Of a stretch of DNA of 64,000 bases, positions 5,260 to 49,442 are shown piece by piece. Made by a program: the position numbers and the translations under genes. This stretch comes from Thermocoleostomius sinensis A174. Its GTDB lineage: Bacteria; Cyanobacteriota; Cyanobacteriia; Elainellales; Elainellaceae. The stretch covers positions 3,201,026-3,265,025 of the forward strand of contig NZ_CP113797.1 of assembly GCF_026802175.1 (NCBI RefSeq), read 5' to 3'. The notes beneath the pieces are model-generated. The model was not told the DNA's origin. It saw only the letters and a program-made list of their open reading frames with translations, and ran no database searches. Numbering within the stretch: the stretch's first letter is position 1; every line of letters starts with the position of its first letter.

Positions 5260-5747
5260 CGCAATTCATCCAGACTAGACTGCTTAAGCCTAAGCTGGAA
5301 ATCTGAGGAAAATCTGAGGAAAATCAGTTTTGCTGCATTGATTGCTGCATAGCGGAATTAACCCAAAAATGTCTTCCAAGGTCAACGAGTCCAAATTTCC
5401 CAAAATGGTTCATTCTCCAAAATCCCGTCGCTTGCTAGACGGAAACACGGGTCATTTTCTGGAATTTCAGTTTCTAAGGAAACGGTCGGATTCAAGGTTG
5501 TTTTTGCGCCCAATAGTCAGGAATTCTATCTTTGACGGCATCAGGACAATTGTGAAAGATGAAATGTTGTGGTTCGGTTCCTCCTATGCATCACCGTCTT
5601 GCAACAGCAACAGATTTATCTTTTAGATTGAAACCAAAATTTTTTATGGGGCTGGCGTTCTATGACTTCAAGACCGCTGTCGCTAGCATTGCAACTTTTA
5701 GCAGGAAAAACTGTGGAAAAAATGAGAAGTTTGCAGGTTGTGCAAAT
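5260..5747. other. Intergenic region, 488 bases, no supported gene
   Basis: Overlapping short open frames exist on the plus strand (5342-5626 and 5559-5819), but they have no ribosome-binding site, run into the clc gene on the opposite strand and resemble no family I know. No transposase motif was found on either strand. The right part should contain the terminator of clc; the left part the promoter of the CBS gene. Confidence 0.4.
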
Positions 5748-16182: not shown

Positions 16183-16908
16183 TTAATACATCCCTCCCCA
16201 AGCATCTAGGATCGTTAACATTCGCTTATCTGCTAAACCATCAACACGACTGACAATATCGCTAAAGGAAGTAAAGGGAGATTGCTTGCGAGCTTTCTCA
16301 ATGTTTTTAATCAGCTTTTCAGCCGTTTTACCGCGAATACCTGCTATCGCCATTTTTTGTAACAGTTCCGCAGCGGTAGCAGCATTAAAAATTTCCAGCG
16401 GCTCAACTTTCTGCGGAATTTGTTGCTGAAGCGATGTAATTTGTTGCTCCAAACGCTGGACATCACGTTGGTGGGACTGCTTTATCTCCTGTAGTCCTGC
16501 ATCAAGACGAGATTCTAGATTAGTCATACGTTGCTCTATCGTTGTTGATGCCTCAGTCGGCGAACTAGCATCAGTATACGGCTTGAGCGTGGTAGGAGTT
16601 TGTGTTTGATGTAAAGCGGCAAACTGCTTAATAGCAGCATCTTCTAGATCTTCAGGGATGATAAAAGCATTGACCATTTCGGCTGCCCGCGGGTTAATTT
16701 CTTTGGCTCTGACAGCAGCATAATATTCGCGATCGCCTGCCAACACCTCATAGGAATCGACTCCGGTTTGTTTAAGGAGTAGGGGAGAGAGTAAGCCATT
16801 GGCTTCTAGAATATTCTGTGCTAAGGTTTCTAGCTCATCCACCTTAAACTCTGAACGAGGCAGCTTAGAAGTAATACTCCTTACATCAACTAAATAGTAT
16901 TCGCTCAT
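16183..16908 (-). CDS. ParB-like nuclease-domain protein with C-terminal helix-hairpin-helix-like segment
   Basis: 241 residues. Residues about 5-95 match the ParB/Srx N-terminal fold (NGLLSPLLLKQTG, then YEVLAGDREYYAAVRA, equivalent to the GERRYRA box). A coiled coil follows at about 120-160. The tail (IAGIRGKTAEKLIKNIEKARKQ and later DGLADKRMLTILDAW) resembles paired helix-hairpin-helix units that bind DNA. No classical central HTH of chromosomal ParB is visible, so this is a plasmid- or island-type partition or regulatory protein. It starts three bases after the end of the parA remnant and would form a parAB operon with it. Confidence 0.75.
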   Translation of the reverse strand: MSEYYLVDVRSITSKLPRSEFKVDELETLAQNILEANGLLSPLLLKQTGVDSYEVLAGDREYYAAVRAKEINPRAAEMVNAFIIPEDLEDAAIKQFAALHQTQTPTTLKPYTDASSPTEASTTIEQRMTNLESRLDAGLQEIKQSHQRDVQRLEQQITSLQQQIPQKVEPLEIFNAATAAELLQKMAIAGIRGKTAEKLIKNIEKARKQSPFTSFSDIVSRVDGLADKRMLTILDAWGGMY

Positions 16909-17301
16909 GCGTTATACCCCAATTTTTTCCATCACTTCATTGGAGAGATTTCTGAACTCCTTAACAGAGTCAGAATTACTATCAAATTCAAAGATTGATT
17001 TTGGATCTGGAATTTCCAAACTGCCCATAGTCAGAGTTTTGTTCACACAATTTGATAGGGCAATGCGCTCGTAGATAACGGTATTGAGCACAGATAGCCC
17101 ATATCGTTGAACAACTGCTTCACGCTGTCTCGGGAAGACATGTGTTAAATATCGATTGTTTGTCAACACTTTAGACGGAAGAACTCCCAAGACTTCCAGG
17201 GGGTGCTTGCCAATACTTGAGCGGGTTTCATTGACTTCAACAACGAAATTTTTTACATTACTTAAACCTTGATTAGCAAAGGGCTTCAAATCTGAAGGAA
17301 T

Positions 17302-17327
17302 AATGAGATAGTCCAATGAGATAGTCC
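17302..17327. repeat. 13-base exact tandem duplication inside parA
   Basis: Two adjacent identical copies of AATGAGATAGTCC (plus-strand sequence). The unit length is not a multiple of three, so it shifts the parA reading frame. Confidence 0.95.
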
Positions 17328-17687
17328 GCCGCAATTAAAGCAATCTCTGCGTAAAGATCCCTGGAGGGTGGCGCATCGATGATGGTGATATCGTAGTCAT
17401 CCTCCACCTGTTGAAGTTTTGCATTGAGGCGCAGGCGACTGGCCGCAAAGCGAGTTAAGCGTTGCTGTTCGTCGATCAGTGTAATGTGAGATGGAATGAC
17501 ATCAATTTCCGGGTTGTTGAATCCATTGGATTGGCGAACAATGTCGGGAATAAAGTCAAACTCTCCAGAACTGATAAGTTGCAAAACATTTTTGTCTTTG
17601 AGATTGTCATCTTCATCAAACTGGAATTTGATCAGCCCCGTAGCAAAGGTAGAATTTGCCTGAGCATCAATGTCGATCAGTAATACC

Positions 17688-17721
17688 TTTTTGCCCTTAT
17701 TTCTTTTTTGCCCTTATTTCT
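17688..17721. repeat. 17-base exact tandem duplication inside parA
   Basis: Two adjacent identical copies of TTTTTGCCCTTATTTCT (plus-strand sequence), just after the codons for the Walker A motif. It shifts the frame and leads to a stop within ten codons. Confidence 0.95.
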
Positions 17722-18069
17722 AAAGGCAGCCGCAAGGTTAACGGCAGTAGTGGTTTTACCAACCCCACCTTTGTTGTGATAGATTGCGATCGTTTTCATA
17801 GAGTAACTCTCTCAGCAGCAGAGATGTGTCTAACTTTTCACAACACATCTTTGTCAATCAGTAGTAAACACTGCATCGTCAACGATTGCTAGAATTGCTA
17901 CCAGAATCTGAAACAAATCTTCAAGCTTAACAGAAACACAATAAAGATTGAGATCTTGTTCAAGCTGTCGTTATTTGCGATTGAGGCAACAAATGTCCAA
18001 ACATCTCCACTGGATACAACACCGTAGAAGATAGATTCATTAGTATTGATTAATACACAGCTAATGGTA

Positions 18070-23130: not shown

Positions 23131-23433
23131 AATTCTGCTCCTAAAATGAACAGGTTTTTCTTTTACGCTTGAACACTGAAGTGCCCACTGCGAGCGAGGG
23201 TGTCACTCCAAGGTTCAGTTCTGACGCTGCGCTACTCCTGACCATGAAAGAGTGTTCACGCTAATCGTAAAAGAGTGTTCACGCTAATCGTAATCTATGC
23301 TGATGATGGGAGAAAGAGGGGCGAAAACAAGGATTCTTCCTCTCTGCTAATCTCGCTTCTTTGTCAGCTTAAATCTGAACATTGAATGAATAGCATTGAT
23401 GAATAACGCCCACCCAACGAGGAGGTGTTTTGC
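23131..23433. other. Divergent intergenic region, 303 bases
   Basis: Lies between the histidine kinase (minus) and the TrkA-C gene (plus) and so should carry both promoters. It contains a 23-base exact tandem duplication (23247-23292) and, at the right end, the strong ribosome-binding site of the TrkA-C gene. Nothing else recognised. Confidence 0.5.
23247..23292. repeat. 23-base exact tandem duplication in a divergent promoter region
   Basis: Two adjacent identical 23-base units (23247-23269 and 23270-23292), each reading AAAGAGTGTTCACGCTAATC then GTA. Each unit holds the same GTGTTCAC near-palindrome, so it could be a doubled operator as well as a slippage product. Confidence 0.9.
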
Positions 23434-24238: not shown

Positions 24239-26083
24239 TTAACCCATCTGTGGAGGGTTATTCCCCACAGTGCTAATCCGTCCCAGACGCTGTAAGATTC
24301 GCTGAATTAAATCGGCTTCGGCGATCGGCTTGAGGACGTAATCATCGGCTCCGACCGACAGGGCTTGCTGCAAGATATCTGCCTCGGCATGGGCAGACAG
24401 AAACAGGATGGGCAGCGCGTACCAATGGGCATCGCACCGAACTACCCGGCACAAGTCAATACCGCTATATTCGGGCATAGACACATCCAACAGCAGCAAG
24501 TCGGGGCGAGTGGTTCGCAGCACAGACCAGAATTGGCTGAGATCGCTCAGCCCAGTGACTTGAAAGCCCCAGGGCTGGAGTTGAGTTTGCAATTGCGTCA
24601 GCAAGTCAGGATCGTCGTCTACAATCAGCAGCTTGGCAGTGATGGGATCAAAACGATGCAACAAGCGATTGAGTACCCTGAAGATCTCGCTGGGAGATGC
24701 CGGTTTTTGTAAGTAGGCATCGGCTCCCAGGCGGGCAATGGCAATGCGTTCACTCAACGTATCTTGCTGAGTCAAAATCAGTACTGGCGTGGAACCCAGG
24801 CGTTTAATCTGAGCCAGGAGGTCCATTCCTGGTGTTTGGGTATCCGCGAGGTCCAGATCGAGAATGATGGCATCGGCTGTTTGGGTCAAAAGCTGCTGCC
24901 AGGCACTAGTGAAGTCGATAGTTGCATCCAGATGACATCCCCAACTGGGTGCTTCGGTTTGGAGGGGTTGAATCAGGGTTGAATCAGAAGCGATCGCCAA
25001 AACCCGGTGGGTCAAGGGCGGATGGGATGCTGCCGAGGCTGGAGCAGAATCGGTAAAAGGAGATTGAGTCGTAGCTTGTCGAAGTTGCTGTAACAGGGCG
25101 ACTAGTTCAGGGGCGATCGCGGGTTGGGGTGTAGCCAGCCGTTGCTCGATGTGTCGTGCCAGTGTCGCGGCCTTTGGTTGCCCATAGGCACTGAGGGAGC
25201 CGATCAATCGATGGGCAATGGACTGTGCCTGCTGCTGTTGCGCTGGAGTCAGGGTTTTAGTTTCTAGGTTGTGAATCGCTGATTCTAACAGGCTTAACTG
25301 CTCCTGGAGTCGTCCTTGGAACTCCTGCCACATCTGCTCAATGGCGGCGGTCGCCTCCTGTTGTCTCACCTGCTCTTCAGCATTAAAGGGTTCCAGTGGC
25401 GTATCCGGTTGCCAAGCTCGCAAGCGATAGCCCAATCCATACAGCGTTTCGATCGGGTCGTTGGGCAGTCCGGCAGCTTTCAGCTTGCGGCGCAGTCCCC
25501 GAATTTGAGTGGTGACCGCTTCTTCCCCTGGGCATTCGTCAATGGACCAGACATGATCGAGCAAAGCCTTGCGGTCAAAAATGCGTTGGGGATAGCGCAA
25601 GAAGAGTTCCAGCAACTTGTACTCTTTGGGGGTGAGCTTAATCGGATTGCCCTGATAGGTGACTTTGCACGCTTGAGGGTCTACCTGTAACGCTCCCCAG
25701 GTTAGGGTTTCCGTCATCGGCGTTTTGCCCCGCCGCAGCAATGCCCGAATCCGTGCCAGCAATTCTGCCGCATCGTAGGGCTTGGTAAGATAGTCATCGG
25801 CGCCAGCTTCTAAGCCAGCCACGCGATCGCCCACCGCATCCCTGGCGGTCAATAGCAGAATGGGCATAGTTTGATGCTGTTGCCGCAGGGTACGACAAAG
25901 AGAAATGCCATCTACATCGGGTAGCATCACATCCAGCACGATTAAATCGTAGGGAACCGTTTCTAGCAGCGCCAGTGCCGTTTGAGCATTCGGTGCAGTG
26001 TCTACGGTCAACTGCTGGGCGGTGAGTGCAGTGCTCAGAGCAGCGGTTGTTTCGCGATCATCATCGATAATCAACAGTTTCAT
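24239..26083 (-). CDS. Multidomain response regulator: REC - winged helix - HPt-like - REC - REC
   Basis: 614 residues. REC1 at 1-118 with phospho-acceptor Asp51; an OmpR-type winged-helix DNA-binding domain about 125-222 (LTPKEYKLLELF, RGLRRKLKAAG, YGLGYRLRAW); an HPt-like helical segment about 235-330 with AHRLIGSLSAYG; then two further receivers, about 362-475 (VLILTQQD, LQKPASPSE) and about 487-605 (LLIVDDDPD, LLLLDVSMPEYSG, VLKPIAEAD). It can combine promoter binding with phosphorelay steps in one chain. Cyanobacteria are rich in such hybrids. Likely fed by the kinase at 20956. Its target genes are unknown; the stress island to the right, or the TrkA-C gene, are candidates by position only. 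Confidence 0.92.
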   Translation of the reverse strand: MKLLIIDDDRETTAALSTALTAQQLTVDTAPNAQTALALLETVPYDLIVLDVMLPDVDGISLCRTLRQQHQTMPILLLTARDAVGDRVAGLEAGADDYLTKPYDAAELLARIRALLRRGKTPMTETLTWGALQVDPQACKVTYQGNPIKLTPKEYKLLELFLRYPQRIFDRKALLDHVWSIDECPGEEAVTTQIRGLRRKLKAAGLPNDPIETLYGLGYRLRAWQPDTPLEPFNAEEQVRQQEATAAIEQMWQEFQGRLQEQLSLLESAIHNLETKTLTPAQQQQAQSIAHRLIGSLSAYGQPKAATLARHIEQRLATPQPAIAPELVALLQQLRQATTQSPFTDSAPASAASHPPLTHRVLAIASDSTLIQPLQTEAPSWGCHLDATIDFTSAWQQLLTQTADAIILDLDLADTQTPGMDLLAQIKRLGSTPVLILTQQDTLSERIAIARLGADAYLQKPASPSEIFRVLNRLLHRFDPITAKLLIVDDDPDLLTQLQTQLQPWGFQVTGLSDLSQFWSVLRTTRPDLLLLDVSMPEYSGIDLCRVVRCDAHWYALPILFLSAHAEADILQQALSVGADDYVLKPIAEADLIQRILQRLGRISTVGNNPPQMG

Positions 26084-49400: not shown

Positions 49401-49442
49401 TAAAGCAATAGAACTAAAGCAATAGAACTAAAGCAATTAGAA
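49401..49442. repeat. 14-base minisatellite, nearly three units
   Basis: Units TAAAGCAATAGAAC at 49401-49414 and 49415-49428 are identical; a third at 49429 has one inserted T. It lies 17 bases past the stop of the DUF4278 gene. Confidence 0.8.

Follow-up and report, generated by a model that had tools for sequence, protein, structure and literature searches.

A probable, very recent parA pseudogene in Thermocoleostomius sinensis A174 carrying two exact tandem duplications of a kind common in its genome

The window analysed here, a stretch of 64,000 nucleotides from Thermocoleostomius sinensis A174, holds a parA gene that is broken by two separate exact tandem duplications of 17 and 13 bp. 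We assign a probability of roughly 0.78 to the reading that this gene belongs to a dispensable, apparently mobile ParA/ParB_N cassette, became a pseudogene only very recently and was struck twice by a duplication process common in the genome. Most probably the gene is an unremarkable recent pseudogene and not a switch of a special kind. On the pseudogene reading, the first frame-shifting duplication (either of the two, their order being our reconstruction) would have removed ParA, and the second would have landed in DNA that was already unconstrained. The process itself would copy short stretches exactly and in tandem, with no microhomology at their flanks. For parA itself this is of little importance, the gene being a recently formed pseudogene within an accessory cassette. 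Of greater interest than the single gene is the background of duplications across the genome; parA, otherwise undamaged, serves as a dated example of a process that appears to be strong in several cyanobacterial genomes and of which 200 kb of E. coli showed no case.

The parA pseudogene occupies 16912..17799 on the minus strand, with its start codon at 17799 and its stop codon at 16912-16914, and was delineated by translation, by profile match and by blastn against the intact copy of a related genome, G007. Translated from the ATG, frame 0 yields 40 residues before the first stop. A different frame is open across the middle piece, and frame 0 is regained in the C-terminal piece. An uninterrupted reading frame is absent, as none of the three frames is free of stops over the length of the gene. 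The N-terminal piece as searched (17701..17799, minus strand) has an intact Walker A motif, KGGVGKTT, and matches AAA_31 with an E value of 1e-11. Most of the middle piece lies, in the shifted frame, in an ORF at 17273..17584 (minus strand), which holds the DYDITIIDAPPS segment and matches the same profile with an E value of 1.7e-17. Both of these pieces score over the cut-off, whereas the C-terminal piece, held by an ORF at 16912..17334 (minus strand), reaches 16.5 bits and stays under it; over residues 5-139 of the piece it is 88% identical to G007. The deviant Walker A motif (KGGVGKT) and the AAA_31/ParA domain, for which the intact relative scores 182 bits, identify the gene as one for a ParA/MinD-type ATPase. 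In the living cell the function of ParA would presumably be lost.

The original prediction had called this a plasmid-type parA, a description that fits the fold but not the location. The window is part of a single 5.81-Mb contig, and a search of a plasmid collection returned one distant match to the C-terminal ParA piece (30.4% identity, E 2e-8) and, at E 1e-5, zero matches to the partner gene. Membership in a defence system was considered and rejected: PADLOC matches were few, and those for the short ParA started at the Walker A region, the best one, PDC-M28B (29.8 bits, E 7.6e-8), covering residues 3-40.

The ParB-like partner gene, located at 16183..16908 on the minus strand, is intact, as had been predicted. 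It encodes a protein of 241 aa with a ParB_N domain near the N-terminus and a helix-hairpin-helix-like end, and its divergence is like that between relatives. Matches over the cut-off were obtained for PF02195 (ParB_N; 36.2 bits, cut-off 26.3) and DUF655 (23.3 bits, cut-off 22.2), while HHH_6 with 23.9 bits remained under its cut-off of 25.6. Only 3 bp separate the start of the partner gene from the parA stop codon, and the break in parA may therefore reduce translation of the partner. With a ParB_N-domain gene behind that of a ParA-type ATPase, the order of the genes resembles the ParABS arrangement. The pair differs from ParABS in that no ParB helix-turn-helix family matched the partner in Pfam, in that exact parS sites were lacking and in that the pair is patchily distributed with unshared flanks. 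Because the genome encodes one ParB_N protein over the cut-off and its 5.81 Mb contain zero exact matches to the parS consensus TGTTNCACGTGNAACA, the pair is unlikely to be a standard chromosome partition system.

The 17-bp duplication (copies 17688-17704 and 17705-17721, minus strand) lies between Walker A and the LLIDIDAQAN motif and precedes the end of frame 0 after residue 40. The copies of the 13-bp duplication are found at 17302-17314 and 17315-17327 (minus strand), near residue 155 of 285; this lesion therefore sits in the middle of the protein and not, as had been proposed, near the C-terminal third. In other respects the description of the lesions held. Both duplications are exact, their units are unrelated in sequence, and together they add 30 bases (17+13), which returns the far C-terminal part to the starting frame with stops lying between. 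An alignment of the gene pair with that of G007 by blastn (71% nucleotide identity over 1614 columns) contained just two indels in parA, a gap of 17 bases and one of net 13 bases, the latter printed as 1+3+9; both lesions are insertions with respect to the intact gene of G007. At both units the number of extra flanking matches is 0, i.e. flanking microhomology is absent. No hairpin was found at either duplication, and the folding compared with shuffled sequences gave z values of 0.99, -0.78, 0.56 and 0.25. On the coding strand, the 17-bp unit falls within an A-rich stretch. Rescue by ribosomal frameshifting was weighed from a reading of the sequence and set aside: the A-run near the 17-bp unit could permit occasional slipping, but a comparable run was not seen at the 13-bp unit.

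Judged from its substitutions, the break in parA is fresh and very recent. This conclusion draws on a low pN at saturated pS, the lack of acceleration on the branch of the broken copy and the integrity of invariant columns. Compared with G007, the coding pieces of parA gave a pN of 0.074 and a pS of 0.763, the latter saturated. The dN to the outgroup L046 was 0.098 for the broken copy and 0.112 for G007, and that to the outgroup L105 was 0.138 and 0.159, respectively; L045 was dropped from this comparison, as it was not matched by a block pattern. The broken copy is thus slightly nearer to both outgroups than the intact one and, being no further away from them, has not accelerated on its branch. 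Among 78 intact rows, taken from 80 named loci plus G007 after dropping rows with a stop or incomplete coverage, 48 columns are invariant, and none of these is changed in parA; of the 70 columns conserved at >=97% in the same rows, 1 is changed. From this column conservation, the neutral time since the loss of constraint would amount to a maximum of about 0.027-0.030 substitutions per site. The chance that a further duplication falls into 858 bp within that time was calculated as 0.15-0.16, a rough figure which assumes a steady state and a birth rate taken from non-coding DNA. Two frame-shifting duplications in an otherwise undamaged gene are accordingly a mildly improbable observation (about 0.15 or less).

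The duplications in parA belong to a class that is common in this genome. We counted exact tandem duplications with units of 10-24 bp and no more than 3 extra flanking matches in a sample of 1.264 Mb, consisting of the window and 60 stretches of 20 kb, and obtained 84, corresponding to 6.6 per 100 kb. Their density was 26.7 per 100 kb outside and 2.1 per 100 kb inside ORFs of at least 100 aa, an approximately 13-fold difference. The same count yielded 0 in 200 kb of E. coli K-12 (Poisson P 1.7e-6 at the rate in Thermocoleostomius). A first-order Markov resample of 464 kb contained 0 exact tandem duplications with units of at least 10 bp compared with 42 in the real sequence, which excludes chance as the origin of the repeats themselves. 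Units of 11-14 bp form the peak within the range of 10-24 bp, a statement that is valid only for this range as the lower limit of 10 was our own choice; with the same limit of 3 extra matches, shorter exact units numbered 121 for 7 bp, 26 for 8 bp and 53 for 9 bp, those of 7 and 9 bp being more frequent yet, and some of these short units must be due to chance or to known short repeats. Further exact duplications of about 10-18 bp occur elsewhere in the window, e.g. at 5299-5325, 23247-23293, 24965-24987 and 49401-49437.

Nine other cyanobacterial genomes, of which 47.8 to 380 kb each were sampled, carry duplications of this class at 1.0-17.0 per 100 kb. G280 has the lowest value (1.0), and the remaining eight range from 4.2 to 17.0. 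In the 80 named loci around the gene pair, which stem mostly from cyanobacteria and do not constitute a random genome sample, 13 duplications in 773 kb were found (1.7 per 100 kb), well below the 6.6 of Thermocoleostomius. Together with the low value for G280 this indicates that the trait differs by lineage: it is strong in several lineages, not in all. These distributions also bear on the possibility that the lesions in parA are assembly or sequencing errors confined to this one genome. For a genome available as one contig such errors are conceivable but highly improbable, as they would not avoid coding DNA in the way these duplications do and as the same class is present in the nine other genomes. 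Exact 13- and 17-bp duplications are also not known to be a usual base-calling error.

It had further been suggested that parA is a locus prone to slippage, that is a local hotspot at which strand slippage is favoured by sequence or structure. Two events within 890 bp, the position of the 17-bp unit in an A-rich stretch and the single-base frameshifts near the same place in the parA genes of G040 and G317 would speak for such a hotspot. Neither microhomology nor a hairpin was found at the units, however, the units are unrelated, and the lesions in other genomes are single-base changes, not duplications. Moreover, pairs of duplications less than 900 bp apart occur at chance frequency in the genome sample (6 versus 6.4 expected from permutation within ORF classes, P 0.63), so that at the scale of this sample two duplications in one gene are not beyond chance. 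The suggestion thus did not stand up, and we consider a hotspot very improbable. Splitting of genes by duplications is rare and little above random in general. Of the 58 frame-shifting duplications in Thermocoleostomius, a strict test picked out 1, where about 1 was expected (53 of 3000 random controls), and a looser test 5, versus 2.8 expected, two of these five being those in parA. In relatives, the looser test gave 6 versus 3.6 expected for G007 and 0 versus 0.8 and 2 versus 1.5 for others. Two further genes that are possibly broken were noticed: reduction of a frame-shifting duplication to a single copy would lengthen the open stretch from 210 to 761 codons near 6327 of L154 (G007) and from 187 to 312 codons near 19396 of L198 (G280).

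Exact tandem copies can contract precisely. Accordingly, parA had been proposed to be a reversible on/off switch, in which loss of one repeat copy restores the gene; in a cell with many copies of its chromosome, silenced and restored alleles could coexist. A passage of PMC4243769 (citing Waite 2001, 2003) describes pneumococcal capsule genes that are switched off by spontaneous, reversible sequence duplications, and this may serve as a precedent. The likeness to the cap3A, cap8E and tts genes treated there is that duplications within the ORF silence the gene, and a frame-shifting tandem duplication within the ORF, as in phase variation by tandem duplication, is indeed present in parA. The rest of ParA is preserved, as expected if the gene were sometimes on. 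Reversibility and phase variation are reported in that passage for the pneumococcal genes, whereas in parA two losses are needed, the duplications stand amid a genome-wide background of their kind and no sign of reversion was seen. Since neither 13 nor 17 is a multiple of 3, either duplication alone shifts the frame and loss of a single copy does not restore ParA: upon reduction of only one duplication the open stretch remained partial, with 173 or 262 codons. Two independent contractions would be required, and all of the 78 aligned intact homologues read through both sites.

The fate of older duplications was assessed from near-exact tandem pairs in excess of a Markov-2 background. In Thermocoleostomius the excess was 77, 107 and 208 for 0, 1 and 2 mismatches, the last figure being in part ordinary background as the corresponding values for E. 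coli show (0, -1 and 5 in 100 kb). Pairs with mismatches are thus at least as frequent as exact ones, which indicates that duplications persist and age by substitution and are not quickly removed, in conflict with ready contraction. The pattern was less clear in G043 (38, 13 and 28) and G040 (9, 4 and 19), where exact pairs exceed those with one mismatch, as quick loss of copies would give. Taken together, we regard a reversible switch as quite unlikely and prefer to see a fresh pseudogene in parA.

With respect to the molecular origin of the duplications, repeats copied at microhomology would be expected to extend past the second copy; the flanks in Thermocoleostomius gave no indication of this. 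Numbers of duplications with 0, 1, 2 and 3 extra flanking matches were 49, 24, 10 and 1 compared with 48, 24, 9 and 3 expected without microhomology (chi-square P 0.69). This test left out 17 of 101 duplications with at least 4 extra matches; 8 of these have 4-9 matches and 9 have more than 9, the latter being, by their length, mostly arrays of more than two copies. For G007 the fit was poor (30, 16, 13 and 5 versus 36.6, 18.3, 6.9 and 2.3 expected, P 0.017), and microhomology may therefore play a part there. G043 leans the same way (6, 4, 4 and 3 versus 9.7, 4.9, 1.8 and 0.6 expected). The spread of unit lengths from 10 to 18 bp argues against a single transposable element that leaves target-site duplications after excision. 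The Ku profile PF02735 matched none of the nine cyanobacterial genomes searched, while the search did yield a match in the B. subtilis control; Ku-dependent joining hence seems to be missing as a route. Our preferred step, guessed from the pattern, begins with a staggered break or with paired nicks, and the protruding ends would be copied before rejoining, for which Ku would not be needed. In mouse stem cells, according to a passage of PMC5730883, paired nicks or breaks whose ends protrude give rise to small tandem duplications comparable to those found here. That route depends on classical end joining, whereas the search of the nine cyanobacterial genomes returned no Ku.

These observations allow the more far-reaching and still doubtful suggestion that an undescribed process is at work in Thermocoleostomius and some related cyanobacteria. 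It would frequently generate exact short tandem duplications (clear at 10-18 bp), mostly with no microhomology and with no Ku involved, would litter non-coding DNA and would occasionally kill dispensable genes, the lesions in parA being its well-dated product. The misfit in G007 and the tendency in G043 lower the odds for this suggestion. If confirmed, such a process would influence both the make-up of non-coding DNA and the way gene loss begins in these bacteria, and it would call for repair by some route that does not use Ku-dependent end joining. Among the literature matches listed, nothing on point was found for a tendency of cyanobacteria to acquire short tandem duplications by mutation, which is no proof that the trait is unpublished. 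In the excerpt of PMC10068330, the duplication phrase is used for a 110-kb duplication only, and the excerpt of PMC13410964 offers no clear precedent.

The cassette to which parA belongs looks accessory. At a threshold of E 1e-40, the parA family is present in 88 of 388 genomes of the class and its distribution is patchy. When positions 8-30 kb of the window were compared with four relatives by blastn, only the 1.6-kb gene pair aligned and the flanks did not (20 kb of G007 and about 11 kb of each of the others), from which we infer that the cassette is apparently mobile. Clearly broken parA genes were encountered in 6 of the 88 genomes, a count that rests in part on draft genomes in which single-base frameshifts may be errors. 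Besides Thermocoleostomius with its two duplications, these are G040 (L251, one extra base), G317 (L245, one base lost in an A-run), G228 (two frameshifts), G318 (sequence replaced after residue 138) and G004 (a stop inside the DLDSQAN motif); in G305 and G359 the only stops in parA are close to the C-terminus. The lesions are varied, which points to dispensability rather than to a gene prone to duplication. The frameshifts in G040 and G317, genomes from other families of the class, lie near the site of the 17-bp duplication, which may be chance or the result of sequencing errors.

Selection against ParA had also been put forward, meaning that a costly partner or a defence-like system favours any knock-out. 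Tolerance of the loss of ParA is borne out by the patchy cassette and by the varied lesions in 6 of 88 genomes, but active selection is not separable from dispensability, which alone suffices, and some of the lesions in draft genomes may be sequencing errors. A relation to defence would be consistent with a crude motif of a restriction-enzyme-like N-terminal domain in 61 of the 80 named loci, with 10 of the 80 left unscored, and with a match to HSDR_N in L048 (4467-5876), the one protein scanned (27.2 bits, cut-off 25.1). The window parA, however, is a short form without the restriction-enzyme-like domain. We therefore hold active selection to be unlikely, and dispensability remains our preferred explanation for the loss of parA.

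The larger ParA family often has an N-terminal domain like the N-terminus of the R-subunit of restriction enzymes, fused to ParA and followed by a ParB_N partner. Among the best 80 loci, ten records that are not cyanobacterial also have the gene (L050, L063, L065, L069, L073, L077, L080, L094, L099 and L107). Their titles name Desulfobacteraceae, Desulfobacter, Thiotrichaceae, Thiomargarita, Electrothrix, Riflebacteria, Bacteroidales and Deltaproteobacteria; most are MAGs, for which binning errors are possible. Several of the groups so named comprise giant or filamentous bacteria.
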